A program made the position numbers and the translations under genes. Below, piece by piece: positions 32,156 through 44,017 of a stretch of 64,000 nucleotides of DNA (positions are counted from its first letter, which is position 1; each line of letters opens with the position of its first letter). The notes beneath the pieces are model-generated. The model did not search any database. It was not told where the DNA came from and saw only the letters and a list, made by a program, of their open reading frames with translations. Where the stretch lies: contig NZ_QZWH01000014.1 of NCBI RefSeq assembly GCF_003601925.1, forward strand, positions 1 through 64,000. Reading direction: 5' to 3'. This stretch comes from Buttiauxella izardii (GTDB taxonomy: Bacteria > Pseudomonadota > Gammaproteobacteria > Enterobacterales > Enterobacteriaceae).

Positions 32156-33019
32156 ATGGCTGTTTCCATCGACATTATTTCCTGTATCACTGACCGTTTT
32201 GTGGAGCTGACCGCCACAGAAAAACGTATCGCGCAGTTTATTCTCGATGATGTTCAATCCGCCGCGACGCTGCCGATTGCAGAAATGGCGCGGCTTACCG
32301 ATACCAGCCAGGCATCAATCACCCGCTTTGCACGCGCGATTGGCTGTAAAGATGTGCGCGAGCTGAAGGTGAAACTTGCCCAGTCATTAGCGGTTGGGCA
32401 ACGCTTTATTCTTGATGTGCCAGACCTCGAAGGCGTGCAGGGAATTTACGAAACTATCATCAATGTGCTGGATATTAATCGCCGCGCACTCAATCCTGAA
32501 TCGTTAAAAAAAGCGGTGGAATGGTTGAGCAACTCCCGGCAAATCCTCGCCATCGGTATGGGCGGCGGGTCAACGATTTGCGCCCAGGAAGTCCAGTATC
32601 GCCTGTTCCGCCTCGGCCTGCCGGTAGTCAGTCAGAGCGATGGGTTGTTGGTCAGAATGATGTGTTCGTCAGTCGCACCCGGCGATGTGCTGCTGGCGCT
32701 GTCGTTAGGCGGGTTTACCCCGGAGATCATCGAAAGTGCGGCCATTGCCCATCAATACGGCGCGAAAGTTATCGCCATCACGCCTGATGAAACGCCGCTC
32801 GCACAAATCGCCGACATCGTGCTGCCGCTGATTGTGCGGGAAAATGACTACATCTTTAAGCCGAGCACTTCACGCTACGCCATGTTGGCAATGATTGATG
32901 TACTGGCAACGGAGTTGGCGATGGCGAATAAAAGCCAGGCAAAAGACCGCCTGCGTCGTATCAAGCTGGCACTTGATAGCCACCGGGGTGGCGCTGACAG
33001 GCAGCCTTTAGGGGATTAA
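32156..33019 (+). CDS. RpiR/MurR-family regulator (HTH plus SIS)
   Basis: Transcription factor of 287 aa. Residues 1-78 are the RpiR helix-turn-helix (LTATEKRIAQFILDDVQSAA, MARLTDTSQASITRFARAIG, KDVRELKVKLAQSL). Residues 110-260 are a SIS domain (AIGMGGGSTICAQEVQYRLFRLG, DVLLALSLGGFTPEIIESA), which binds phosphorylated sugars. Its end is one base from the dgoA stop, and it converges on the dgoA-dgoK-symporter operon. A 2-keto-3-deoxy-6-phospho sugar acid produced by that operon is the plausible effector. A second RpiR gene at 39606 belongs to a different, beta-glucoside cluster. Confidence 0.9.
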   Translation: MAVSIDIISCITDRFVELTATEKRIAQFILDDVQSAATLPIAEMARLTDTSQASITRFARAIGCKDVRELKVKLAQSLAVGQRFILDVPDLEGVQGIYETIINVLDINRRALNPESLKKAVEWLSNSRQILAIGMGGGSTICAQEVQYRLFRLGLPVVSQSDGLLVRMMCSSVAPGDVLLALSLGGFTPEIIESAAIAHQYGAKVIAITPDETPLAQIADIVLPLIVRENDYIFKPSTSRYAMLAMIDVLATELAMANKSQAKDRLRRIKLALDSHRGGADRQPLGD

Positions 33020-33020
33020 G

Positions 33021-33623
33021 TTACAGTATAAACGCCGCCATAAATCGTTTCGCCTGAACACGCGTAGTTTCAACACTCTGCCCGGCGCGGTACAAATCCC
33101 CGCCCAGCCCTGCTCCCGCGCAGCCGGCCTGTAAATATTCCCCAATATTTTCTGGCGTCACGCCGCCAACCGCCAGCACTGGCACGGTTGGCGGCAACAC
33201 GGCTTTTAGCGCCGCAATATAAGCGGGGCCAAATGCCGATGACGGGAATATTTTCAGGCACTGAGCGCCCGCATCCAGCGCGCTAAACGCTTCACTTGCC
33301 GTGGCGCAACCTGCGCATACCAGCATTCCGGCATCGACTGCCCGGCGTATCACCGTCGGGTTGGTATTCGGCGTAACCACCAGTTTGGCTCCCGCTTGCG
33401 CCAGGAAATCGACCTGCTCTTCATTCAGCACCGTTCCCGCGCCGATACAGGCTTGTTCGCCATAAAAGCTGACCATTTGCGGAATGCTCTGTTGCCAGTC
33501 GGGTGAGTTAAGCGGGATTTCGATATAGCGGAACCCTTCTTCAACCAGCGCGCCAACGTGGGCGCTGGCTTCATGCGGGTGAATGCCCCGTAGAATGGCA
33601 ATTAACGGTTTAGCGTCTTGCAT
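33021..33623 (-). CDS. dgoA: 2-dehydro-3-deoxy-6-phosphogalactonate aldolase
   Basis: Class I aldolase of the KDPG/KHG family, 200 aa, splitting 2-keto-3-deoxy-6-phosphogalactonate to pyruvate and glyceraldehyde 3-phosphate. Motifs: LIAILRGIHPHEA (Glu/Arg region), YIEIPLNSPDW, CIGAGTVLNEEQV, KLVVTPNTNP, and the Schiff-base lysine in QCLKIFPSSAFGPAYIAAL. The IPLNSPDW variant is that of DgoA rather than Eda. It overlaps dgoK by 14 bases. No galactonate dehydratase lies beside it, unlike the E. coli dgo operon. Confidence 0.92.
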   Translation of the reverse strand: MQDAKPLIAILRGIHPHEASAHVGALVEEGFRYIEIPLNSPDWQQSIPQMVSFYGEQACIGAGTVLNEEQVDFLAQAGAKLVVTPNTNPTVIRRAVDAGMLVCAGCATASEAFSALDAGAQCLKIFPSSAFGPAYIAALKAVLPPTVPVLAVGGVTPENIGEYLQAGCAGAGLGGDLYRAGQSVETTRVQAKRFMAAFIL

Positions 33624-34473
33624 CGATAATGCTCCTTATTCCTTGCTGGAAGGCGGCATCGCCTGCAATTTCCTGGCTGCCGATATTCACTTTTGCCAGC
33701 GCCCGGCGATAACGGCGACACAGCGATTCATTGCCGACCAACGTGACATGTTTAACGGCGAGTTCATGGCTCATCGCGGCGACTTCCGCGCCAATCAGCA
33801 AACCCGAAAGCCATTCGCTCACGCACTCTGGCGGCAAATCGCCCAGAACGCGCGACGCACGGGCTTCGAATAAACGACTCACCAGCGATGGCGAATCCAG
33901 CCCGCACTGCAGGCCGGTATTAAACGCTGCCTCATCATCATGCTGCTCTGGCAGGCCTTTGCCGATAAGCGAATGATTCATCAGCAGATGATGTAATTCC
34001 CCGGTCATCGCCGTGGTAAAACCGCTCACTGAACCTTCGTGAATCTGCACCCATTTGCTGTGCGTGCCGGGCATCACGTAACAATCAGCGGGAGCGAGTT
34101 GCATGGCTCCAATAAGCTGTGTCTCCTCGCCACGCATCACGTTGCGTGCCATTTTCAGCCCCGGCACAATCCACACCTGCGGCGCGACTTCAAAGAGTTG
34201 AGCACCAATCTCATGTAGCGTGACCGGGCAAGGCAGGTATGGCACGGTCTGCCACCCCGCATCGCTGCCTATCATTCCCGCCATAATCACAGGAATATCC
34301 TGCGCACTGCGCCACAGTTGGATGAACTGCTCAAATACCTGGCGCGGCGTTTGCTCGGTTAACCGGCTCACACCCAGTGGCTGTTGCAGGCTGTCCACGC
34401 ATTGCCCATCGCGATACAACCAGGCGCGCAAATGCGTGGAGCCCCAATCAATAGCGATATAACTGGCATTCAT
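33610..34473 (-). CDS. dgoK: 2-dehydro-3-deoxygalactonokinase
   Basis: Kinase of 287 aa phosphorylating 2-keto-3-deoxygalactonate at O6 with ATP. The N-terminus has YIAIDWGSTHLRAWLY, the phosphate-1 loop of the ASKHA-type DgoK family, and PGTHSKWVQIHEGSVSGFTTAMTGE matches the family core, with LVGNESLCRRYRRAL near the end. It overlaps the upstream symporter gene by four bases and the downstream dgoA by 14, so the three are translationally coupled. Confidence 0.92.
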   Translation of the reverse strand: MNASYIAIDWGSTHLRAWLYRDGQCVDSLQQPLGVSRLTEQTPRQVFEQFIQLWRSAQDIPVIMAGMIGSDAGWQTVPYLPCPVTLHEIGAQLFEVAPQVWIVPGLKMARNVMRGEETQLIGAMQLAPADCYVMPGTHSKWVQIHEGSVSGFTTAMTGELHHLLMNHSLIGKGLPEQHDDEAAFNTGLQCGLDSPSLVSRLFEARASRVLGDLPPECVSEWLSGLLIGAEVAAMSHELAVKHVTLVGNESLCRRYRRALAKVNIGSQEIAGDAAFQQGIRSIIDARR

Positions 34474-35960
34474 CGTGCGTTCCCCGTTGCACGTTTGCCC
34501 AACGGAACCGGTACGGCTTCCGGTTGGTTTTCGCGTTCACGCGTGATCATCTCCAGTGCTTCTTCGCGGCTCATTTTGCTGGCGGGAGTCAGCAGCGTCA
34601 CCACCACCGAAAGCACCAGGCTGGTCAACACTGACGGCACACATGGATTGCCCCAGAAGGCCATCCAGCTGTCATTTGTCAGCAGCACCATCGAGGTTCC
34701 CGCGCCGCCGAGAAGCGCTGCCAGCGCACCTTGCCAGTTAAAGCGCGTCCAGAAACGGCCCAGAATCGAGCAGATAAACATGCCGGACATGATCATGGAG
34801 ATCATTTTGGTGATGTAGCTAATGATGTCGTTCGAGGTCAGTGCGAACAGCAGCGCCAGACCAATCACCAGCACCAGGAAAATACGCGACATACGAATCG
34901 CTTTTTCAGGCGCAGGCATATGGCCGGTAATTAAGGTGTATAAATCGCGCAGCACGATAGACACCGCAGCAATCGCATCCGAGCTTCCCGAGGACATGTT
35001 CGCCGACATCCCGGCAATCAATACCAGCATCGCCAGCATGGGCGGCAGCACTTGTGTCGCAAACAAGAAAGCAAAACCGCTGTTCTCAAGCGCCGGGTTC
35101 ATGGTGTACGCCGCCATGCCAATGATCGCGGGCAGGAAAGAGAATCCAAGATATAACAGGCCAGTAATGACAAACGATTTACGCACCGTGCCAACCGATT
35201 TAGCGGAGTAAATCCGCTGGCGATAAGAAGGCGTTGCCAGCACGCCGACACCAATCACCATAGCCAGCGAGAACGCAGGTAATACGCCTAATTTATCCAC
35301 AGCAAACAGACTTTGCGCCGCTGGGTCTACAGCCTCCTGAATATGGCTCCAGCCCCCGACATGGTGAACCGCCAATACCGCCATCAGGATAAACCCGCCA
35401 AACAGAATCAATGACTGTACGGTATCAATCCATACCACGGCGGAATATCCCCCGATGCCGACATAAACAATAAAGGCCGCAGCAATAATAATTTTCGCCG
35501 TATTAATATCGATTCCACTGGCCCAGGCAAGATATAAACCGCCACCCAGAATATGCGCGCCGAGCCAGCCAATAGAAGCGATGAATATTAATATTGCCAC
35601 CACGTTCTTAATAATTTTACTGCCACCGGTATAATAAGATATTTCTTCGCTCATGGTCATAAAGCGCATTTTACGCACTGGCGCAAATAACCAGGCCACC
35701 AGCAAAATACCCACTGCACCACCAAGGCCATATAGCATACCCGCCCAACCGTTGGTGTAGCCAAAACCCACCGCACCCACGCTTGAACCGGTGCCCACCA
35801 TGGTGCCGACGGTTGAACCCAGCGTTAAAATTAATGGCATTGAACGGCCACCTAATAAAAAGTCATCGCCATTTTTTTGGTGGCGGGAGACATACCAGCC
35901 GAGAACAATCATCGCGCAGGCATATATCGCAAACCAAATCAGAAAAGACATATTATTCAT
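34470..35960 (-). CDS. Sodium:solute symporter (SSS family)
   Basis: Na+-coupled permease of 496 aa with 13 predicted membrane helices. SSS features: the N-terminal WYVSRHQKNGDDFLLGGRSM, GSTVGTMVGTGSSVGAVGFGYTNGWAG, GYSAVVWIDTVQSLILFGG and GMSANMSSGSSDAIAAVSIV (Na+ site region). It lies between ridA and dgoK on the same strand. The substrate is not readable from sequence; context suggests an N-acylated amino sugar acid or a related D-amino acid. Confidence 0.88.
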   Translation of the reverse strand: MNNMSFLIWFAIYACAMIVLGWYVSRHQKNGDDFLLGGRSMPLILTLGSTVGTMVGTGSSVGAVGFGYTNGWAGMLYGLGGAVGILLVAWLFAPVRKMRFMTMSEEISYYTGGSKIIKNVVAILIFIASIGWLGAHILGGGLYLAWASGIDINTAKIIIAAAFIVYVGIGGYSAVVWIDTVQSLILFGGFILMAVLAVHHVGGWSHIQEAVDPAAQSLFAVDKLGVLPAFSLAMVIGVGVLATPSYRQRIYSAKSVGTVRKSFVITGLLYLGFSFLPAIIGMAAYTMNPALENSGFAFLFATQVLPPMLAMLVLIAGMSANMSSGSSDAIAAVSIVLRDLYTLITGHMPAPEKAIRMSRIFLVLVIGLALLFALTSNDIISYITKMISMIMSGMFICSILGRFWTRFNWQGALAALLGGAGTSMVLLTNDSWMAFWGNPCVPSVLTSLVLSVVVTLLTPASKMSREEALEMITRERENQPEAVPVPLGKRATGNAR

Positions 35961-36085
35961 GGCTCACTCCCAGGTTAATAATAAAGATGAAATTAGCCGC
36001 CTGAAAAAAGATACAGGAAACCCGTTGGCACGTTATATGAGAGGTGCCTGAATATATTTAATTTAATTTTTGATGAGGAGTTTTC

Positions 36086-36199
36086 GCCCTCACCCTAACC
36101 CTCTCCCCCAGGAGAGGGGACCGATCTTTTCTACCTATCCATGAGACGGGACCGTTCTTTTCGCCCTCTCCAGGGGGAGAGGGCCGGGGTGAGGGTGGC
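36086..36199. repeat. GC-rich interspersed hairpin repeat, copy 2
   Basis: CCCTCACCCTAACCCTCTCC begins the element and GGGAGAGGGCCGGGGTGAGG ends it, so the 114 bases can fold into one long imperfect hairpin, with two smaller hairpins inside. It fills most of the gap between ridA and the downstream symporter gene in the same operon and could cause partial termination or protect the upstream mRNA. Confidence 0.8.
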
Positions 36200-36200
36200 C

Positions 36201-36590
36201 TTAGCGATCGGCCCGATAGCAGGTCAAATCGACTTCCACTTTGCAATCAACAACCAAATCCGCCACGCAACAAACGCGCGCTGGCGGATGTTCGGAAAAG
36301 AATTCAGCGAACACTTTGTTAAACGACTGGAAATAACGCGCATCCGTCAGGAAAACTTTTACGTGAACCACATCAGCCAGCGTGTAACCCGCATCCTGCA
36401 TGATGTCGACACAGTTCTGAATCGCCAGGCGCGACTGCTCGATAATGCCGCCTTCCACCACTTCGCCGTCTTTCATCGGCGTCTGGCCGGAAACATACAA
36501 CCAACCGCCCGCTTCCACCGCTTTGGCGAAAGGCAACTTCTGCCCGCCCGTTCCGGTGCTGCCACCCACTCCATAACGTTTAATGCTCAT
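36201..36590 (-). CDS. RidA-family reactive imine deaminase
   Basis: Small YjgF/YER057c/UK114-fold protein of 129 aa. The family core is visible: FAKAVEAGGWLYVSGQTPM, VVEGGIIEQSRLAIQNCVDIM, DVVHVKVFLTDARYFQSFN and PARVCCVADLVVDCKVEVDL with the Arg that binds the carboxylate of the imine. RidA proteins hydrolyse 2-aminoacrylate-type enamines and imines released by PLP dehydratases. Sitting after the deacylase gene and close to a PLP dehydratase, it probably clears the imine formed in this pathway. Confidence 0.9.
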   Translation of the reverse strand: MSIKRYGVGGSTGTGGQKLPFAKAVEAGGWLYVSGQTPMKDGEVVEGGIIEQSRLAIQNCVDIMQDAGYTLADVVHVKVFLTDARYFQSFNKVFAEFFSEHPPARVCCVADLVVDCKVEVDLTCYRADR

Positions 36591-36610
36591 AAATTCTCCT
36601 TAATAATTCA

Positions 36611-36643
36611 CCTCGCCCTCAGGGAGAGGGCCAGGGTGAAGGT
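36611..36643. repeat. GC-rich interspersed hairpin repeat, copy 3
   Basis: CCTCGCCCTCAGGGAGAGGG followed by CCAGGGTGAAGG is a short version of the element found at 1-59, 36086-36199 and 52834-53092. It occupies the gap between the deacylase gene and ridA. Confidence 0.75.
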
Positions 36644-36648
36644 TGTTT

Positions 36649-38079
36649 TTACCGGCGCAAAAACCGCCCGGCACGACCAATCACTTGTTTATCCCGACCG
36701 TAGCTCATCACACCGTTAACCATCACGGCTTCAATACCGGCTGCGGGCTGCTGCGGGTGGCTAAAACTTGCCACATCACGCACGGTTTCAGGGTCAAACA
36801 TCACTAAATCTGCAAAGTAGCCACACTTCACCAGCCCGCGCTCAGCAAGCTGGAAACGCGCCGCCGACATCCCCGTCATCTTATGCACCGCTACCGTCAG
36901 CGGGAATAATTTCTCGTCGCGGCTGTAATGCCCCAACACGCGCGGGAATGCGCCCCACAAGCGCGGATGCGGCATCGGGTCGTTCGGCAAACCGTCTGAA
37001 CCGACCATCGTCACCGGGTAACTTAACACGCGGCGCACATCCTGCTCGTCCATGTTGTAGTAAATCGCCCCGGCGGGCATCAGCAATTTTCCGGCCTCAA
37101 CCAGCGTCATCGCCCAGCTTTCCGCGATTTGCTTGAGCGATTGCCCGGCGACTTCAGGATGCGGTTCCGACCACGTAATAATGATGTCGAAATCTTCGGT
37201 AATCTGTTTCAAATCCAGCGTCGAAGAGCTGGCGGAATACGGGTAGCAATCGCAGGAAACATCCTGCTGCTGGCGCACTTTATCGAATAATTTCAACGTC
37301 TCGACTGTGCGACCCCAGTTCTTCGCCCCGGCACATTTATGGTGCGAAACCACCACCGGAACTTTGCCGTGGCGGCCAATGCTGAATGCTTCGTCAAGCG
37401 CGTCCAGAATCGGTTCAAATTCAGAGCGCAAATGTGTGGTGTAAATCCCTTTTCCGGCGGCTAACTCTTCCGCCAGCGCCATCACTTCTTCAGTGGTGGA
37501 ATGGAATGCCGTGGCGTAAGCCAGGCCGGTACTCAAACCCAGCCCGCCTTGTTCCAGCGCCAGGCGGAGCTGCTCGCGCATCGCGCTAATTTCGTCGGGT
37601 GTGGCGGCGCGGAATAAATCGTCCATATGATTATTGCGCAGCGCGGTATGACCAATCAGCGTGCCGACATTCACGGCGGGTTTCGCCTGCTCCACCGCTT
37701 CGGCGTAAGCCGCAACCGTTGGATAAACAAACTGTTCTGCCTCACCAAGCAAATTCATCGGGTCTGGCACCGCGCCTTTCATGGTCGCTGTTGCGGCACT
37801 GATCCCACAATTGCCAACAATCACCGTGGTAATGCCCTGGCTAATTTTCGGCAAGTATTCCGGCATCCGAATCACGTTAATGTCATCGTGGGTGTGCACG
37901 TCGATAAAACCAGGAGCCAGCACGCGGCCTGTACCGTCGATTTCATGATGTGCAGATTCGCTAATCGACGGTGCGATTTGCGCAATCCTTTCGCCTTGCA
38001 CCGCCACATCAGCGCGATACTGCGCGCCCCCGCTTCCATCAATGACGGTGACATTTTTAAACAAATAGTCGAACTTCAT
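36649..38079 (-). CDS. N-acyl-D-amino-acid deacylase (amidohydrolase)
   Basis: Metal-dependent amidohydrolase of 476 aa that removes the acyl group from N-acyl-D-amino acids. Metal motifs: GFIDVHTHDD (HxH), VGNCGISAA, HLRSEFEPILDALDEAFSIG, VVSHHKCAG (His ligands) and TMVGSDGLPNDPMPHPRLWGAFPRVLG (Asp). The last 60 residues complete the beta-sandwich (GYFADLVMFDPETVRD). ATG 38079 (MKFDYLFKNV) has AGGA nine bases upstream and is preferred to 38121. First gene of the operon deacylase-ridA-symporter-dgoK-dgoA and divergent from the PLP enzyme at 38282. The neighbouring keto-deoxy sugar acid genes suggest an N-acylated 2-amino sugar acid as substrate. Confidence 0.9.
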   Translation of the reverse strand: MKFDYLFKNVTVIDGSGGAQYRADVAVQGERIAQIAPSISESAHHEIDGTGRVLAPGFIDVHTHDDINVIRMPEYLPKISQGITTVIVGNCGISAATATMKGAVPDPMNLLGEAEQFVYPTVAAYAEAVEQAKPAVNVGTLIGHTALRNNHMDDLFRAATPDEISAMREQLRLALEQGGLGLSTGLAYATAFHSTTEEVMALAEELAAGKGIYTTHLRSEFEPILDALDEAFSIGRHGKVPVVVSHHKCAGAKNWGRTVETLKLFDKVRQQQDVSCDCYPYSASSSTLDLKQITEDFDIIITWSEPHPEVAGQSLKQIAESWAMTLVEAGKLLMPAGAIYYNMDEQDVRRVLSYPVTMVGSDGLPNDPMPHPRLWGAFPRVLGHYSRDEKLFPLTVAVHKMTGMSAARFQLAERGLVKCGYFADLVMFDPETVRDVASFSHPQQPAAGIEAVMVNGVMSYGRDKQVIGRAGRFLRR

Positions 38080-38281
38080 GGCTTCCTGACCCCCGTTGTG
38101 TTCTGGGCTAAAGTTAACCATTTACAAGCGCAAAAAACAGTGGAAGACTACACAAAATACATATGAAATTATGATACTTTTATTCAACGCAAAGATCACA
38201 CAAAGTAATTTTTCATAATTATCAATAGATTAAAACTGATACCCAGTCTGAAAGAAAAGCCAACCCCAAAGGAATAATGTT

Positions 38282-39502
38282 ATGAAATACCAGAAAAGTA
38301 ACATCGTCCCACATAAATCTGCCTCGCTATTCACCCCGGCGAACATCCTTAATGAAGACGTATGCCTGCCTGCTGCGGTTATCAAAAAAGCTGCGCTTGA
38401 GAACAATATCCAGTGGATGCAGCGTTACGCTGATACGCGCGGTGTCTCGCTGGCACCGCACGGCAAAACTACCATGACGCCGTGGATTTTCCAGCAGCAA
38501 CAGCAAGCGGGAGCCTGGGCGATTGGCGTCGGTAGCGCCTGGCAAGCCAGCATCGCGATGGTCAGCGGCATCAAGCGCGTGTTGATGGTTAACCAGTTGG
38601 TTGGCAAAGCGAATATGCAGTTGGTTTCGCAGCTAAAAGCACAATACCCAGACGTTGATTACCTGTGTTGTGTCGACAGCGTTGCCAACGCAAAAACCCT
38701 TTCCGCGTTCTTTGCCGCACAAAACCAACAGCTCGATATTTTGATTGAACTGGGCGTGCCGGGTGGCCGTTGCGGTTGCCGCACCGCCGAGCAAGCGCTG
38801 GCGTTAGCCGAAGAAATCTCTCGCCTTCCAGCGCTGCGTTTACGCGGGCTGGAGCTTTATGAAGGCGTGCTGCATGGCGAAAACCCGCAGCCGAAAGTCG
38901 AAGCATTACTGCGTGATGCCGCAGCACTCGCCTGCAAACTGGAGCGTTACGTCGACGGGGAATTTATCCTCACCGGCGCGGGTTCCGTCTGGTATGACGT
39001 GGTGTGTAACGTCTGGCTGGAAGCGCAAAAACCGGCAAACTGCCGCGTGGTGATTCGCCCTGGCTGTTACATCACTCATGATGCGGGGATTTATCAGGAA
39101 GCGCAGGAGGAATTAATGGCACGCGACAAAACAGCCTGCGATTTAGGTGGGGATTTGGCTTCCGCGCTGGAGCTGGTTGCGATGGTGCAATCGGTGCCAG
39201 AAAGCGACCGGGCGATTGTGAACTTCGGCAAACGCGACAGCGCCTTTGATGCCGGATTACCGCAACCTGTTGCGCATTATCGTGCGGGGAAAGCCCTGGC
39301 AAACGCCGCTGAAACTATCGAAACCACGGGCATTATGGACCAGCACGCGATGCTTAAACTCAAACCGGGCGCTGACGTGCAGGTAGGAGATATTCTGGTG
39401 TTCAGCACTTCGCATCCGTGCCTGACATTCGACAAATGGAAAGCGCTGTATCTGGTGGACGATGAATACCAGGTTCTGGAAACCTTAGAAACCGCGTTTT
39501 AA
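38282..39502 (+). CDS. D-serine dehydratase-like PLP enzyme (fold type III)
   Basis: Alanine-racemase-fold PLP enzyme of 406 aa, usually annotated amino acid deaminase, D-threonine aldolase or metal-activated D-serine dehydratase. The PLP lysine is Lys62 in LAPHGKTTMTP, and the C-terminal metal motif HPCLTFDKW (His and Cys ligands) is that of eukaryotic-type D-serine dehydratase. Such enzymes eliminate water or a beta group from D-2-amino-3-hydroxy acids, giving a 2-keto acid and ammonia. A 2-amino-2-deoxy sugar acid has exactly the same C2/C3 pattern and would give a 2-keto-3-deoxy sugar acid, the DgoK substrate. ATG 38282 has AAAGGAATAATGTT upstream. It is divergent from the deacylase operon. 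Confidence 0.85.
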   Translation: MKYQKSNIVPHKSASLFTPANILNEDVCLPAAVIKKAALENNIQWMQRYADTRGVSLAPHGKTTMTPWIFQQQQQAGAWAIGVGSAWQASIAMVSGIKRVLMVNQLVGKANMQLVSQLKAQYPDVDYLCCVDSVANAKTLSAFFAAQNQQLDILIELGVPGGRCGCRTAEQALALAEEISRLPALRLRGLELYEGVLHGENPQPKVEALLRDAAALACKLERYVDGEFILTGAGSVWYDVVCNVWLEAQKPANCRVVIRPGCYITHDAGIYQEAQEELMARDKTACDLGGDLASALELVAMVQSVPESDRAIVNFGKRDSAFDAGLPQPVAHYRAGKALANAAETIETTGIMDQHAMLKLKPGADVQVGDILVFSTSHPCLTFDKWKALYLVDDEYQVLETLETAF

Positions 39503-39517
39503 CCCGTCAGAACCCCT

Positions 39518-39590
39518 GTCGGATGGCGCAAGCTTATCCGACCTACAAAATCAATGGGATTGTAGGTCGGATTAGCTTGCGACATCCGAC
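39518..39590. repeat. Paired REP elements (BIME-like)
   Basis: GTCGGATGGCGCAAGCTTAT and its inverted partner ATTAGCTTGCGACATCCGAC flank CCGACCTACAA/TTGTAGGTCGG arms around a short spacer. This is the typical head-to-head enterobacterial REP pair, placed between the convergent PLP-enzyme and RpiR genes. Confidence 0.85.
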
Positions 39591-39605
39591 AATATTGCCA
39601 ACAAC

Positions 39606-40691
39606 TCAGCTATCAATCCCTTCGCACAGCAAATCAATCACTAACAACGCCCCGTAGCGCGTGTCTTTAAGCGGCAGATGAATATCTTCGCGATGGATAA
39701 ACGCACCCACTTCCTGGCCGATAATCACTAACTCAGCCCCCAGCCGACGCGCCTGATGCGACGCCGCAATCAGCGAATTTTCTGGCGCACTCCCGGCGAA
39801 AATCACCAACACCTGCCCTTTCCCTAACATTGAAGCAGTGATACCCATCATCGCTCCATCCTGGCAAATATTGGCCGGATAACCCTGAGTCAGCAGGCGA
39901 TATTGCAGCAGGCTGGCAAAGGGCGTATCGGCCGCGCTGGCGCTAAAAATATGCACCGCCTTCGCCTGCTTTAACCGTGCAATCGCCTGGTTCATCGCGG
40001 AGGGCAGCAGATCGCACAACTGGGAATTTAACGCATGTTGCACATTGCCCAGTTTGTCGCGCCACGGAGCTGGCATATCGCCCGCAGAAACCGGCGTGGT
40101 GGCCTGCGCCAGTTTCATGCGCAAATCACGAATATCGTCGCAGCCAGCGGCTCGGGCAAAACGGGTGATCGTCGCTGGGCTGACGCCTGCCGCCGTCGCG
40201 AGCTGGTCGATGGTTGCAGAAGCCGCAAACGAGACATCTTCAAGAATGGTCTGCGCGACGCGCGATTCCTGCTGGCTGAAGTCATTCAGGCGGCTGCGGA
40301 TCTGGCCGAGAATATCGCTGCTACTTTCGCGCCCGATAGAGTGCGAAAAGCGCTCGAGTATTTCGCTACCCACTCCGGCATTTTTAGCCAGTGCTTGCAG
40401 AGCGCGAGGATCCATCCACGCCGCATCACCCAGTATCGGCGCGGCTGGCGTTTGCAGGCTGCTCTCCTGCTGTTGGTGGCGCACCTGGCCGATAAAATCA
40501 TTGATATCGTCACAGCCAATGCTCCTGGCGAAGTGCTGCAATGTTGCCGGGCTAACACCGGCTTTGGCTGCCAGCTCTTCCATCGTCGCATCCGGGATCT
40601 GCGCGAAATTGTCGAGGAAAAAGCGCGCAAGACGCGATTCTTGCGCAGGTAGACCCGATAACCCATGCACCAGTTGGTAAACAATATCCAT
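39606..40691 (-). CDS. RpiR-family regulator with three HTH-type repeats
   Basis: Transcription factor of 361 aa, about 75 longer than usual RpiR proteins. Repeat 1 (residues 37-70, MEELAAKAGVSPATLQHFAR), repeat 2 (98-131, LQALAKNAGVGSEILERFSH) and repeat 3 (161-194, IDQLATAAGVSPATITRFAR) align at 61-63 residue spacing; repeats 1 and 3 also share the preceding QES(R)xA helix. Repeat 2 has lost SPAT and is probably degenerate. Residues 230-350 are a SIS sugar-phosphate domain (VHIFSASAADTPFASLLQYRL). It is divergent from the beta-glucoside PTS operon, whose upstream region has TGAAA/TTTCA palindromes fitting RpiR proteins. Confidence 0.87.
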   Translation of the reverse strand: MDIVYQLVHGLSGLPAQESRLARFFLDNFAQIPDATMEELAAKAGVSPATLQHFARSIGCDDINDFIGQVRHQQQESSLQTPAAPILGDAAWMDPRALQALAKNAGVGSEILERFSHSIGRESSSDILGQIRSRLNDFSQQESRVAQTILEDVSFAASATIDQLATAAGVSPATITRFARAAGCDDIRDLRMKLAQATTPVSAGDMPAPWRDKLGNVQHALNSQLCDLLPSAMNQAIARLKQAKAVHIFSASAADTPFASLLQYRLLTQGYPANICQDGAMMGITASMLGKGQVLVIFAGSAPENSLIAASHQARRLGAELVIIGQEVGAFIHREDIHLPLKDTRYGALLVIDLLCEGIDS

Positions 40692-40745
40692 AACAGAAGG
40701 TGTCCTAATGTCGGCAGTGACGACTCGTTAAAGGCATCATAAATT

Positions 40746-40764
40746 ATTGAAATTATTTTTCAAT
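40746..40764. promoter_or_regulatory. Candidate RpiR operator 1
   Basis: ATTGAAA-TTATT-TTTCAAT, a palindrome with seven-base perfect arms, 55 bases upstream of the RpiR start. It shares the TGAAA/TTTCA core with the palindrome at 40890-40904, suggesting two sites for the same protein, one near each divergent promoter. Confidence 0.55.
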
Positions 40765-40889
40765 CTATCCAACCAGATGAGGGTGTTTTCATCCCATAAC
40801 TCGCCCGTTAGATCCATTATTCTTATACAGATCACATTTTCAGCCTGCTGTACCTTGCCTGATCAATTATCCAACTGCGATCACACTCA

Positions 40890-40936
40890 TGAAAATAATT
40901 TTCACACATGCTAATTAAAACAGCTAATGTGTGAAA
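40890..40936. promoter_or_regulatory. Candidate RpiR operator 2 and second inverted repeat
   Basis: TGAAAATAATTTTCA (40890-40904) is a perfect 15-base palindrome of the TGAAA/TTTCA type. It overlaps a wider inverted repeat, TTTCACACAT (40900-40909) and ATGTGTGAAA (40927-40936), with ten-base perfect arms. Both lie within 75 bases of the PTS IIB start and are likely control sites of the beta-glucoside operon. Confidence 0.55.
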
Positions 40937-40964
40937 TATGTTTTCAAACGAGAGGATTGTTGTA

Positions 40965-41270
40965 ATGAAAAAAATCATGTTGTGTTGCGCTGCGGGAATG
41001 TCCACCAGCATGCTGGTGCAGAAAATGCGTGCTGAAGCGGCAAAGCGTTCAATGGATGTCGAAATCGAAGCGTTCCCGGTAGCAGAAATTGAAAACCAAC
41101 TTCAACACGCCGATGTGGTACTGCTCGGCCCGCAAGTGCAGTTTGAATTACAACGCCTGACCGAACTTTCGACCCCGCGGGGCTTGCCTGTCGCGGTGAT
41201 AGACATGATGGATTACGGCACCATGCGCGGCGATCGCGTGCTGGATAAAGCCATTCAACTGATGGCCTGA
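40965..41270 (+). CDS. PTS lactose/cellobiose-type IIB
   Basis: Cytoplasmic phosphotransfer protein of 101 aa from ATG 40965 (MKKIMLCCAAGMSTSML), which is preceded by GAGAGGATTG; a start at 40938 would add nine residues. The phosphorylatable cysteine is Cys8 in CCAAGMSTS, and VVLLGPQVQFEL matches the ChbB/CelA family. It passes phosphate from IIA to the sugar carried by the IIC encoded two genes downstream. No IIA gene is present in the operon. Confidence 0.92.
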   Translation: MKKIMLCCAAGMSTSMLVQKMRAEAAKRSMDVEIEAFPVAEIENQLQHADVVLLGPQVQFELQRLTELSTPRGLPVAVIDMMDYGTMRGDRVLDKAIQLMA

Positions 41271-41287
41271 GGCCCGCGGAGAGCAGC

Positions 41288-42589
41288 ATGAAAATTACCG
41301 TTGTTGGTGGGGGAAGCAGTTACACCCCGGAATTGATTGAAGGTTTGATTGAGCGCCACGCTTCGCTGCCAATGGCGGAACTGGCACTGGTGGATGTCGA
41401 AGCCGGTCGCCAGAAAGTTGATATTATCGCCGCTCTCGCTCGCCGTATGCTCGATCGCAATGGCCTGGAAGCGGTAAAAGTCTCGGTGCATTTTGATGCT
41501 AACGAGGCGATAAAAGGCTCCAGTTTTGTCTTAACGCAATTGCGCGTCGGGCAACTTCCCGCTCGCGCTGCCGATGAGCGCCTCGGTTTAAGCCATAAAC
41601 TGCTGGGCCAGGAAACCACCGGCGTAGGCGGTTTTGCCAAAGCGCTGCGCACCATTCCGGTGATGATGGATATTGCGAAACGCGTGGAACGCCTGGCTCC
41701 CGATGCGTGGATTATCAACTTCACCAATCCGGCTGGTATTGTGACCGAAGCGGTATCACGCTACAGCAAGGCCAAAATTATCGGCCTGTGTAATGTGCCC
41801 GTCACCATGCATCACACGATTGCCGATATGCTGAAACTGCCTCACGAGAGAGTTTCGCTCCGTTTTGCGGGCCTGAATCATATGGTTTGGGTACATAAAG
41901 TGCTAGCTGACGGGCGCGATGCCACCGATGAAGTAATCGAAATGCTGTGCGATGGCGAGCAGCTTTCCATGAACAATATTAAAGCGATTCCGTGGCCTGC
42001 GGATTTGCTGCGCGCCCTGCGTGCGATTCCCTGCCCATATCACCGCTATTTCTGGCAAACCCGCACCATGCTCGAAGATGAACTGGCCGACGCCGACACC
42101 AAAGGCACCCGCGCCGAGCAGGTGATGAAAGTGGAGGAGTCGCTATTCAAACTGTACGCCGACCCTAATCTGGACAAAAAACCGGAAGAACTCAGCCAGC
42201 GCGGCGGTTCGTTCTATTCCGAAGTCGCGGTGCAATTGATTAACGCGCTGCACAACAATCTCGGCGTTGAAATGGTGGTCAACACCGCCAATAACGGCGC
42301 AATTCAGGGCTTGCCGGACGATGCGGTAATCGAAACTAATTGCCTGATTGATGCCCTGGGCGCGCATCCTCTGGCCTTTGGTAAATTACCGCTGCTGATG
42401 AATGGCCTGACGCAACAAGTGAAAGATTTTGAACGCCTGACCATCGAAGCGGCGGTTCACGGCGATAAGCAAAAAGCGTTGCTGGCGTTGGTCGCAAACC
42501 CGCTGGTGGCAGATGTGAATCTGGCTCAAACGTTAGTCGACGAAGTATTAAGCATTAACAAAGCGTGGTTACCGCAGTTCAATCAGTAA
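41288..42589 (+). CDS. 6-phospho-beta-glucosidase (GH4)
   Basis: NAD+- and divalent-metal-dependent glycosidase of family GH4, 433 aa, hydrolysing phosphorylated cellobiose or aryl beta-glucosides by an oxidation-elimination route. The NAD site is KITVVGGGSSYTPELIEGL; conserved positions include QLRVGQLPARAADERL, TNPAGIVTEAV, the metal-binding Cys in IGLCNVPVTMHH, GLNHMVWVHKV and the late VVNTANNGAI. Placement between IIB and IIC confirms a phospho-sugar substrate. ChbF is the E. coli counterpart, but the sequence is closer to LicH/CelF-type enzymes. Confidence 0.93.
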   Translation: MKITVVGGGSSYTPELIEGLIERHASLPMAELALVDVEAGRQKVDIIAALARRMLDRNGLEAVKVSVHFDANEAIKGSSFVLTQLRVGQLPARAADERLGLSHKLLGQETTGVGGFAKALRTIPVMMDIAKRVERLAPDAWIINFTNPAGIVTEAVSRYSKAKIIGLCNVPVTMHHTIADMLKLPHERVSLRFAGLNHMVWVHKVLADGRDATDEVIEMLCDGEQLSMNNIKAIPWPADLLRALRAIPCPYHRYFWQTRTMLEDELADADTKGTRAEQVMKVEESLFKLYADPNLDKKPEELSQRGGSFYSEVAVQLINALHNNLGVEMVVNTANNGAIQGLPDDAVIETNCLIDALGAHPLAFGKLPLLMNGLTQQVKDFERLTIEAAVHGDKQKALLALVANPLVADVNLAQTLVDEVLSINKAWLPQFNQ

Positions 42590-42646
42590 TGGCTTTTCAC
42601 CAAATATAAAAACAATACCCGGCGTAAATCCTGCGCCGGAAAGGGG

Positions 42647-44017
42647 GTGTCTGTGTCTGTGAGTAAATCTATTATCGAAAAATACGTGCTGCCTACCGCG
42701 CTTAAAATCGCCGGGCAAAAGCACGTTCTGTCGGTACGTGACGGTATCATTCTGAATATGCCGTTTATGCTTATCGGCTCGTTTTTCCTGATTTTTGCCT
42801 ATCTTCCGGTGCCCGGTTACGGGCAGATGATGACCAACTTGTTCGGCCCAACGTGGCAGGAAAAGGTGCTCTACCCGGTTAAAGCGACTTACGACATCAT
42901 GGCGCTCATCTCCGCCTTTGGTATCGCGTATCGCCTGGCAGAAAAATACCGCACTATCGACCCGCTAACCGCAGGCGCAGTGTCTTTGGTCGCTTTTGTG
43001 ATGACCATTCCACAGCATATTATGTTTACTCCGGCAGCAGGTGGCGCAGCACAACTGGTGAAAGGCGTGATGCCTATGGGCCAGATTGGCAGTCAGGGGC
43101 TGTTCGTCGCGATTATTATCGCCCTGCTCTCCACCGAAATTTATCGCTTCATTCACAACCGCAACCTGGTTATCCGTATGCCAGAAGGCGTGCCGCCTGC
43201 GGTGGCAAAATCGTTCCTGGCACTGATTCCTGGCTTCTGTGTTTTAGCGGTGGTTCTGGCGCTGCGCCTGTTGGTTGAAGCCACTCCGTTTGGCGACATC
43301 AACACAATGATTACCGATCTGGTCGGCATTCCGATGAGCCATGTAGGCGGCTCCTTGCCAGGGATGATTATCTCGGTATTGCTGATTGGGATTTTGTGGA
43401 TGCTGGGCCTGCACGGCGACACCATCGTGCTGGTGTTTATCCGCCCGGTCTGGCTGAGCAACATGTCTGAAAACCTCGAAGCGTTTCAGAATGGCCTGCC
43501 GATTCCGCACATTATCACGCAGCAATTTTACGACTTGTGGATTGCCCCTGGCGGCACCGGCGCGTTGTTAGGCCTGGTGATATTTATGATTATCCGCAGC
43601 CGCAGTGCGCAGATGAAACAGCTCGGTAAAATCGCCGCCCCAGGCAGCCTGTTTAACATCAGCGAACCGATGGTGTTCGGCATTCCCATCGTCATGAACC
43701 CGTATCTGGTGGTGCCGTTTATTCTGACACCCGTGGTATTGGTGATTGTTTCTTACATCGCGATGACCACTGGACTGGTGGCAAAACCTGCGGGGATCGC
43801 CCTGCCATTTACCACGCCAATTGTGGTCAGCGGATACCTTGCAACGGGCGGGCATATTTCAGGTTCGATACTGCAAATTGTGAACCTCGGGATTTCGCTG
43901 GTGATGTATTACCCGTTCTTCCGCATCTGGGATAACCTGAAATATCGCGAAGAACAGGCGAGTAAATCACAGAAAGAAGCGGCGGTTACGCCGGTGACTG
44001 AGCAGATTACGTCTTAA
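42647..44017 (+). CDS. PTS lactose/cellobiose-type IIC
   Basis: Integral membrane sugar channel of 456 aa with about ten helices. CelB/ChbC-family features: LSVRDGIILNMPFMLIGSFF, GLHGDTIVLVFIRPVWLSN, GGTGALLGLVIFM and FNISEPMVFGIPIVMNP, the signature shared by IIC proteins of this class. The start is a GTG; three in-frame GTG codons (42647, 42653, 42659) follow AAGGGGG, and 42653 or 42659 has better spacing. With the IIB and GH4 genes it forms a beta-glucoside uptake operon controlled by the RpiR gene upstream. Confidence 0.92.
   Translation: MSVSVSKSIIEKYVLPTALKIAGQKHVLSVRDGIILNMPFMLIGSFFLIFAYLPVPGYGQMMTNLFGPTWQEKVLYPVKATYDIMALISAFGIAYRLAEKYRTIDPLTAGAVSLVAFVMTIPQHIMFTPAAGGAAQLVKGVMPMGQIGSQGLFVAIIIALLSTEIYRFIHNRNLVIRMPEGVPPAVAKSFLALIPGFCVLAVVLALRLLVEATPFGDINTMITDLVGIPMSHVGGSLPGMIISVLLIGILWMLGLHGDTIVLVFIRPVWLSNMSENLEAFQNGLPIPHIITQQFYDLWIAPGGTGALLGLVIFMIIRSRSAQMKQLGKIAAPGSLFNISEPMVFGIPIVMNPYLVVPFILTPVVLVIVSYIAMTTGLVAKPAGIALPFTTPIVVSGYLATGGHISGSILQIVNLGISLVMYYPFFRIWDNLKYREEQASKSQKEAAVTPVTEQITS

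Follow-up and report, generated by a model that had tools for sequence, protein, structure and literature searches.

An ong-type gene set with DgoK and DgoA in Buttiauxella izardii that may extend to galacto-configured N-acetyl-hexosaminates

The ong, dgo, and dga systems and the gene set in the window

The window, a 64,000-nucleotide stretch of Buttiauxella izardii DNA (contig NZ_QZWH01000014.1, positions 1 to 64,000), carries a set of genes akin to the ong genes for the use of N-acetyl-hexosaminates, with DgoK and DgoA as the end enzymes. Among the described systems close to it, the D-glucosaminate (dga) pathway of Salmonella works through the phosphotransferase system (PTS), with the substrate phosphorylated on uptake and a different ammonia-lyase acting on the 6-phosphate; what it shares with the scheme considered here is the conversion of a 2-amino-hexonate into a 2-keto-3-deoxy acid. 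The D-galactonate (dgo) operon of enterobacteria has a DgoK and a DgoA of the 2-keto-3-deoxy-6-phosphogalactonate (KDPGal) type, both of the same families as those in the window, where, however, the ong core replaces the galactonate dehydratase, DgoT, and GntR-type regulator. The ong cluster itself is known from Pseudoalteromonas prydzensis ACAM 620, in which it acts on N-acetyl-D-glucosaminate (GlcNAc1A) (Jiang 2022, PMC9537276), and the structure of its deacetylase PpOngB has been solved (Wang 2025, PMC12017989). According to the former paper, gene removal and enzyme tests established that the sodium:solute symporter (SSS) OngIT imports GlcNAc1A, OngB deacetylates it, the pyridoxal phosphate (PLP) enzyme OngC deaminates the product to 2-keto-3-deoxygluconate (KDG), and KdgK phosphorylates KDG, with the RidA protein OngD being essential and the RpiR protein OngR acting as a repressor (PMC9537276). 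The same paper states that the marine OngC also accepts D-serine and D-threonine, counts Klebsiella among the ong carriers, and describes the TonB-dependent receptor OngOT-1 as not conserved across all of them (PMC9537276). With a gluco substrate, the steps of OngB, OngC, KdgK, SSS, and OngR have been demonstrated by others in this marine relative.

In the genome that holds the window (4.77 Mb in 91 contigs), Pfam and NCBIfam models confirmed the coordinates and families of the six genes that a first-pass annotation had singled out, namely those for an OngB-like amidohydrolase, a RidA protein, an SSS protein, DgoK, DgoA, and a divergent PLP enzyme. What that annotation had overlooked is an RpiR gene, convergent behind dgoA, which we include in the following list together with a candidate operator.

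32156-33019, + strand: RpiR/MurR-family regulator, counterpart of OngR (Pfam HTH_6 and SIS)
33021-33623, - strand: DgoA, of the 2-dehydro-3-deoxy-6-phosphogalactonate aldolase type (NF006600, 296 bits with a cut-off of 207; KDPGal aldolase structure 2v81, 281 bits)
33610-34473, - strand: DgoK, of the 2-dehydro-3-deoxygalactonokinase type (PF05035, 310 bits; 2-oxo-3-deoxygalactonate kinase 3r1x, 311 bits)
34470-35960, - strand: SSS protein, counterpart of OngIT (PF00474, SSF)
36201-36590, - strand: RidA-family protein, counterpart of OngD (PF01042, Ribonuc_L-PSP)
36649-38079, - strand: predicted OngB-type N-acetyl-hexosaminate deacetylase (Amidohydro_3; 9g5m, 891 bits; PpOngB residues)
38172-38186, + strand: candidate RpiR operator TGATACTTTTATTCA between the divergent ongB and ongC, conserved upstream of OngC
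38282-39502, + strand: predicted OngC-type fold-III PLP dehydratase/deaminase (D-ser_dehydrat and Ala_racemase_N; 3gwq, 403 bits; PHGKT and SHPC motifs)

Here, the SSS and DgoK genes overlap by 4 bases and the DgoK and DgoA genes by 14 bases, which suggests a single transcript; the RidA and amidohydrolase genes lie upstream of the SSS gene on the same strand, and the PLP gene is divergent. In line with the first-pass annotation, no galactonate dehydratase was found beside DgoK and DgoA, and neither was DgoT or a GntR-type regulator, among the ten proteins of 32156-42589 whose families were determined. The set shares with the P. prydzensis cluster an OngB whose substrate contacts agree, an OngC of the fold-III PLP type, RidA, SSS, and RpiR, with the RidA being 76-84% identical to that in order-level ong loci (our loci L038-L055) and the SSS 62-65% identical to that of Vibrio-type ong loci (e.g. 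L040-L043 and L069). The differences are that DgoK (a PF05035 kinase) and DgoA stand where P. prydzensis has KdgK, that the regulator gene lies behind DgoA rather than between ongC and ongB (order ongCRBD in P. prydzensis), and that OngA (GH20) is absent from the cluster, since no match to the Vibrio OngA was found in 27000-50000, a GH20 gene being located on contig C33.

We consider it very probable that this gene set encodes a pathway of the ong type for N-acetyl-hexosaminates, whether gluco or galacto. By analogy with the marine relative, whose steps we infer to run in this genome too, the SSS protein would import a free 2-acetamido-2-deoxy-hexonate, OngB would take off its acetyl group, and OngC would yield a 2-keto-3-deoxy-hexonate through the loss of water and ammonia, with the RidA protein presumably taking part, as is needed in the marine relative, and the RpiR protein repressing from the conserved site between ongB and ongC. 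In kind, this is the scheme of the first-pass annotation, which had an importer, a deacylase, a PLP enzyme taking off water and then ammonia, a kinase, an aldolase, and a RidA. Its claim of an undescribed pathway, however, had to be dropped, as PpOngB is a solved relative of the window deacetylase and the chemistry has already been published for GlcNAc1A (PMC9537276, PMC12017989). Its interpretation is partly supported, and we regard the window set as a novel version of the ong pathway.

Deacetylase pocket, PLP enzyme, and putative operator

Compared with solved structures, the window amidohydrolase scored highest with 9g5m (891 bits), which is deposited as an 'amidohydrolase family protein' and for which we found no descriptive paper in the open-licence literature, followed by PpOngB (9kb1, 545 bits) and the D-aminoacylase 1rjp (481 bits). 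The substrate contacts of PpOngB are given in its structural description, which stresses that Ser292 and Gln298 separate GlcNAc1A deacetylases from D-aminoacylases (AfDam/BbDam), the latter having Thr in place of Ser292 and Leu or Arg in place of Gln298 (PMC12017989). At 19 of the 21 positions checked, the window OngB has the PpOngB residue (Cys97, Leu116, Ala193, Tyr194, His222, Glu226, His252, Lys254, Ala256, Tyr285, Ala289, Ser290, Ser291, Ser292, Thr293, Gln298, Asp368, Leu370, and Arg379), with Ala288 changed to Ser and Gly348 to Asn (PpOngB numbering). Included among those kept are the GlcNAc1A contacts (such as Glu226, Ser290, Ser291, Ser292, and Gln298) and the zinc ligands, and the D-aminoacylase signature is absent. 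Because both Ser292 and Gln298 are kept, 'N-acyl-D-amino-acid deacylase' is likely a family name here and not the function. The open reading frame (ORF) of this protein extends to 38121, though homologs favor a start at 38079, giving 476 residues. Its closest named relative is the OngB of Buttiauxella sp. B2 (92%), in a search that may leave out very near records.

The window PLP enzyme displays a PHGKT motif and, near its C-terminus, an SHPC motif, both of which are found in 115 of the 120 OngC proteins counted. In dehydratases of the fold-III PLP type, His-x-Cys binds metal, whereas the aldolases carry His-x-Asp; D-threonine aldolase 4v15 shows SHVD at the SHPC position of OngC. The SHPC motif would therefore favor that OngC eliminates the C3 hydroxyl and then loses ammonia. 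With regard to solved proteins, the closest in sequence is 3gwq (403 bits over nearly the full length), entered in the PDB as a 'D-serine deaminase' and originating from Burkholderia, although a GVGSAW stretch in the OngC of the window and of other enterobacteria corresponds to TLATAH in 3gwq.

The stretch that separates ongB from the divergent ongC contains the sequence TGATACTTTTATTCA. Allowing for no more than one mismatch, this sequence recurs upstream of OngC in 47 of the 51 loci whose OngB is more than 68% identical, as compared with none of the 11 loci of an IclR-type arrangement (type B, see below) and 1 of 58 others. It was not met in any of 2400 single-base shuffles of the upstream stretches, and in the window 38172-38186 is the only place with fewer than three mismatches. 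We propose this site as the putative RpiR operator. In front of the SSS gene, the sequence with at most one mismatch is present in 0 of 40 loci, which agrees with the statement, in the P. prydzensis work, that the ongIT operon is not controlled by OngR (Jiang 2022, PMC9537276).

Arrangements in other genomes and the configuration of the substrate

To place the window set among its relatives, we drew on 162 loci in which OngB matched at 200 bits or more. Of these, 121 also have OngC and RidA; the 41 loci without these two were left out of the comparisons, as was L199 (doubled pieces) from most of them. Genes were labeled by their best BLASTP match to reference proteins, by which diverged genes can be missed, and some loci repeat those of other genomes with an identical OngB (L063/L148, L066/L171, L071/L185, and L086/L187). 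The arrangement of the window is found in 29 loci, itself included and two being repeats of another. The same order and orientation of six genes in 29 of 162 loci, and also in public records of Klebsiella pneumoniae, argues that the arrangement is not due to chance. In 28 of these, the RpiR gene is convergent behind DgoA, and the 29th stops at a contig end. A second arrangement is like that of the window without DgoK and DgoA (11 loci), and a third lacks both this pair and SSS (8 loci, from only three genera, g171, g236, and g238). Type B, found in 11 loci (9 distinct), has IclR followed by DgoK-DgoA-OngB-RidA-SSS-OngC, with the IclR gene being identified in L071 and L086 only. These type B clusters (L071, L086, and L180-L188), from Tenebrionibacter, Budvicia, and kin, carry a distant DgoK in front, and their OngB pocket is a distinct one that does not concern the window (Ser193, Gly290, Asn293, and Gln348 in PpOngB numbering). 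Vibrio-type loci (e.g. L040) contain a PfkB-type KdgK, an aldolase of the 2-keto-3-deoxy-6-phosphogluconate (KDPG) type, and OngA. As a separate observation, the SSS gene is of two kinds among otherwise similar clusters, mostly 72-78% versus 84-97% identical to that of the window, and these kinds cross genus lines (L037, L062, L067, L142, L144, L147, L159, L164, L169, L170, and L173-L175).

The window arrangement occurs in Klebsiella oxytoca, Raoultella, Leclercia, Buttiauxella, and K. pneumoniae. In the K. pneumoniae and K. oxytoca loci (NZ_OP378649, CP125156, and NZ_BCZK01000012), the kinds and order of genes match those of the window, DgoK and DgoA included, and OngB is about 80% identical; these loci are annotated gene by gene and not as a pathway. 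In the public K. pneumoniae annotation, the last two genes are a 2-dehydro-3-deoxygalactonokinase and a 2-dehydro-3-deoxy-6-phosphogalactonate aldolase, and one of the two K. pneumoniae records has no gene call on the deacylase. Record CP125156.1 (L234), a 5.37-Mb 'plasmid', resembles a Klebsiella chromosome and has its OngB match in three pieces with no gene listed. An added 'kdgA' is reported for Vibrio, Klebsiella, and Serratia in the ong survey (Jiang 2022, PMC9537276), yet the corresponding aldolase in the K. oxytoca locus is of the DgoA type with Val, and the two Serratia loci (L068 and L070) gave no match to SSS, DgoK, DgoA, KdgK, or Eda within 9 kb on each side. A megablast search of 33021-38121 against an Escherichia coli collection returned no match.

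Our preferred reading, to which we assign a probability of roughly 0.5, is that this ong variant includes a galacto branch, in which the core takes both configurations and DgoK and DgoA serve the galacto product. Here, the OngB, OngC, and RidA core would probably accept either C4 configuration, and DgoK and DgoA, which we infer to be meant for the galacto product, would allow that product from N-acetyl-D-galactosaminate to be used, besides or instead of the gluco one. The gluco product could be managed by the cell's own KdgK and Eda, as the window genome has a KdgK-type gene on contig C26 (49% to the Vibrio KdgK) and an Eda-type gene elsewhere (45%), so that an extra pair for this product would be redundant. 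Moreover, there is the aldolase position V154 (KDPGal) or T161 (KDPG), whose role in stereochemistry was reportedly first worked out by Walters and colleagues. Val occupies the site of E. coli V154 in all 44 in-locus DgoA proteins, the window's included, and in both further DgoA of the window genome, while Thr is found in all 17 Eda-type aldolases of the ong loci. This position affects the stereoselectivity of the aldolase together with a second site (PMC4915726). DgoK is also found elsewhere in 9 of the 10 genomes that have SSS without an in-cluster DgoK and DgoA, as compared with 150 of 392 genomes of the family.

In the DgoK tree, the window kind (type A) groups with the DgoK of contig C8, one of two further contigs of the window genome (C8 and C22) that have a DgoK gene, and its like, while the type B DgoK forms a distant branch with that of genome G711, the Paraburkholderia DgoK joins that of G667, and the Vibrio litoralis DgoK (L129) joins that of C22 with long branches. 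DgoK beside the ong genes falls on at least three separate branches, pointing to an exchange of the end enzymes on more than one occasion, and this recurrent joining of the pair to ong genes is a further argument for the galacto branch. In the C8 pair, DgoA is 72% identical to that of the window and adjoins a 382-residue ORF resembling DgoD by eye; the C22 pair (L058, 7970-9576) has a DgoK and a DgoA that are 34% and 45% identical to those of the window and a different neighborhood. V. litoralis (L129, 12591-14617) has a row of genes behind SSS, namely DgoK, DgoA, and a PfkB kinase of which the contig end leaves the first part, and its OngB pocket pattern is that of the window. In Paraburkholderia (L113), an IclR gene lies in front of the DgoK/DgoA pair, which may be a mere neighbor.

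That DgoK has fallen into disuse is not supported, as comparison with genome G112 gave a dN of 0.155 and a dS of 1.25 (dN/dS about 0.12), which looks like purifying selection and counts in favor of the galacto branch. Between the window and the locus of a congener (L034), dS is 1.25 for dgoK, 0.52-0.66 for ongB, ongC, SSS, ridA, and rpiR, 0.13 for dgoA, and 0.16-0.27 for the PTS and GH4 genes to the other side. This odd divergence of dgoK looks like an exchange of single alleles.

Several observations weigh against the galacto branch. In the mutants of the aldolase study, exchange of Val and Thr alone did not invert stereoselectivity (PMC4915726). Moreover, when counted by genus, the comparison of DgoK elsewhere becomes marginal (6 of 7 versus 70 of 154). 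The OngB pocket is identical in 29 of 29 loci with DgoK and DgoA, 11 of 11 with SSS and no such pair, and 8 of 8 with neither, and no fixed columns in OngB or OngC separate the window kind from loci without SSS, DgoK, and DgoA. In fact, a galacto-specific signature of the OngB pocket was sought and not found, one pattern being common to the first three arrangements (48 loci) and V. litoralis; the 13 OngC columns that differ from the OngC of KdgK-type loci do not discriminate either, since, with minor exceptions, they are common to all enterobacterial arrangements. The pair is absent from 19 related loci (11 with SSS, 8 without), and here the first-pass annotation, for which a separation of the dgo pair from the rest in related genomes would count against its scheme, is partly contradicted. 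PF05035 had no match in 6 of the 18 genomes without an in-cluster pair (G578, G517, G668, G561, G728, and G670). In the last five of these, OngB is 84-86% identical, KdgK-type and Eda-type genes are present, and the product is presumably gluco, on which grounds we reject the idea that every enterobacterial ong set takes a galacto substrate alone. Furthermore, on N-acetyl-galactosaminate catabolism we found nothing in the open-licence literature, and a natural source of this acid is not established. The sixth genome, G578 (L178, 3.5 Mb), has OngB, OngC, RidA, SSS, and RpiR, and no DgoK, KdgK, or Eda match at the limits used.

Foremost among the alternatives is that the set handles N-acetyl-D-glucosaminate only, with DgoK and DgoA co-opted for, or promiscuous toward, KDG and its 6-phosphate. 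The pocket pattern common to DgoK-less relatives, the five genomes that lack DgoK yet possess KdgK-type and Eda-type genes, the kinship of the window SSS with the importer of Vibrio-type loci, and the inclusion of Klebsiella among the ong carriers (PMC9537276) all speak for it, and we regard it as possible, if somewhat doubtful. Against it stand the KDPGal-type Val kept in every in-locus DgoA, the presence of KdgK-type and Eda-type genes elsewhere, which makes the repeated recruitment of a galacto pair odd, and V. litoralis, in which DgoK and DgoA adjoin a PfkB kinase. We think it very improbable that the locus instead serves N-acyl-D-amino-acid catabolism, in which a deacylase and a D-serine/D-threonine dehydratase would have the dgo pair adjacent by chance: while the public annotation names (D-aminoacylase, amino acid deaminase) and the two D-amino acids taken by the marine OngC (PMC9537276) would fit, the deacetylase has Ser292 and Gln298 rather than Thr with Leu or Arg, and SSS, DgoK, and DgoA overlap and remain with the set in 29 loci. 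A core of dual configuration, with DgoK and DgoA for the galacto product, fits the evidence both for and against galacto. If this galacto branch is true, Klebsiella, Raoultella, Leclercia, Buttiauxella, and others would possess an N-acetyl-D-galactosaminate route that, as far as we could find, the open-licence literature does not describe. If it is false, the reading of the Klebsiella-type locus is still corrected, in that its aldolase is of the DgoA type rather than the KDPG type, and a clear case remains of a pathway whose end enzymes were swapped more than once.

Neighboring PTS and glycosidase genes and the source of the acids

Adjoining the ong set in the window (39606-44017) are four further genes that are possibly linked to it.

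39606-40691, - strand: second RpiR-type regulator (RpiR2) with two HTH_6 stretches by Pfam, adjoining the ong core in other loci
40938-41270, + strand: PTS EIIB of the lactose/cellobiose type (PF02302; TIGR00853, 100 bits, below the cut-off of 110)
41288-42589, + strand: GH4 enzyme, nearest among solved proteins to the 6-phospho-beta-glucosidases 5c3m (469 bits) and 1s6y (465 bits)
42647-44017, + strand: PTS EIIC of the cellobiose type (cellobiose-specific IIC 3qnq, 477 bits)

For the GH4 enzyme, the best NCBIfam model is an alpha-galactosidase, at 219 bits far below its cut-off of 486. The same genes are found beside the core in L034, L062, L149, L155, and L156, in which the RpiR2-like gene is 75-97% identical to that of the window (33% in L179), and GH1 with EIIC, and mostly EIIB, is found there in L142, L143, L150, L151, L152, L154, and L157.

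In one further explanation, the cluster is fed mainly by these genes, with a disaccharide ending in an aldonic acid being imported and phosphorylated by the PTS and cleaved inside, from which an N-acetyl-hexosaminate would pass to OngB. Across the first three arrangements (29, 11, and 8 loci, 48 in total), 13 loci have such a PTS and glycosidase set, either EIIB-GH4-EIIC or GH1 with EIIC, beside the core. Among them are 7 of the 8 without SSS, DgoK, and DgoA, the eighth (L153) ending 622 bases beyond OngC, and the pattern suggests a further route of uptake for disaccharides with a terminal aldonic acid. The resemblance of GH4 to 6-phospho-beta-glucosidases and of EIIC to cellobiose IIC likewise accords with such feeding, as does the occurrence of RidA and an OngC after EIIC in L179. 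On the other side, only 6 of 40 SSS loci have such a set, the 8 loci of the third arrangement represent no more than the three genera named above, no EIIA was seen among the window ORFs, the regulator is a separate one, and L156, from the third arrangement, ends 126 bases behind RidA, so that position does not establish that SSS is missing there (its genome has no PF05035 gene). Moreover, GH4 relatives occur in 68 of the 392 family genomes, 26 with OngB and 42 without an OngB match, which does not support a gene set exclusive to ong. As the main supply of the cluster, we consider this quite improbable. A modular hub, in which an OngB, OngC, RidA, and OngR core is fed either by SSS-DgoK-DgoA with free N-acetyl-D-galactosaminate or by PTS and 6-phospho-glycosidase with disaccharides ending in N-acetyl-D-glucosaminate, the window holding both, seems to us unlikely.

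Lytic polysaccharide monooxygenases (LPMOs) of family AA10 do not discriminate between gluco and galacto either, as their distribution does not separate the two. In the window genome (G000), PF03067 had no match, which is a further difference from the P. prydzensis system, and across the 51 enterobacterial genomes of the four arrangements AA10 is present in 14 and absent in 37 (present in 6 of 24 with SSS, DgoK, and DgoA, 3 of 10 that have SSS but not the pair, 1 of 8 lacking both, and 4 of 9 of type B). Among order-level OngB carriers, it is found in 22 of 22 from families f21, f13, and f12, 0 of 2 from f25, and 1 of 6 from f7. Given this scarcity, most enterobacterial carriers would live on acids made by others or not derived from chitin, and, should the galacto branch be real, ong clusters could not all be read as genes of chitin oxidation.

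Two smaller features complete the picture of these loci. In L179, the order is RpiR2-like, EIIB, EIIA, GH4, and EIIC, then RidA and a 35%-identical OngC, with OngB and RpiR alongside. In the window, an inverted repeat with 32-nt arms that are 88% complementary lies between ridA and the SSS gene (36087-36195), where it could act as an attenuator or represent an intergenic repeat element.

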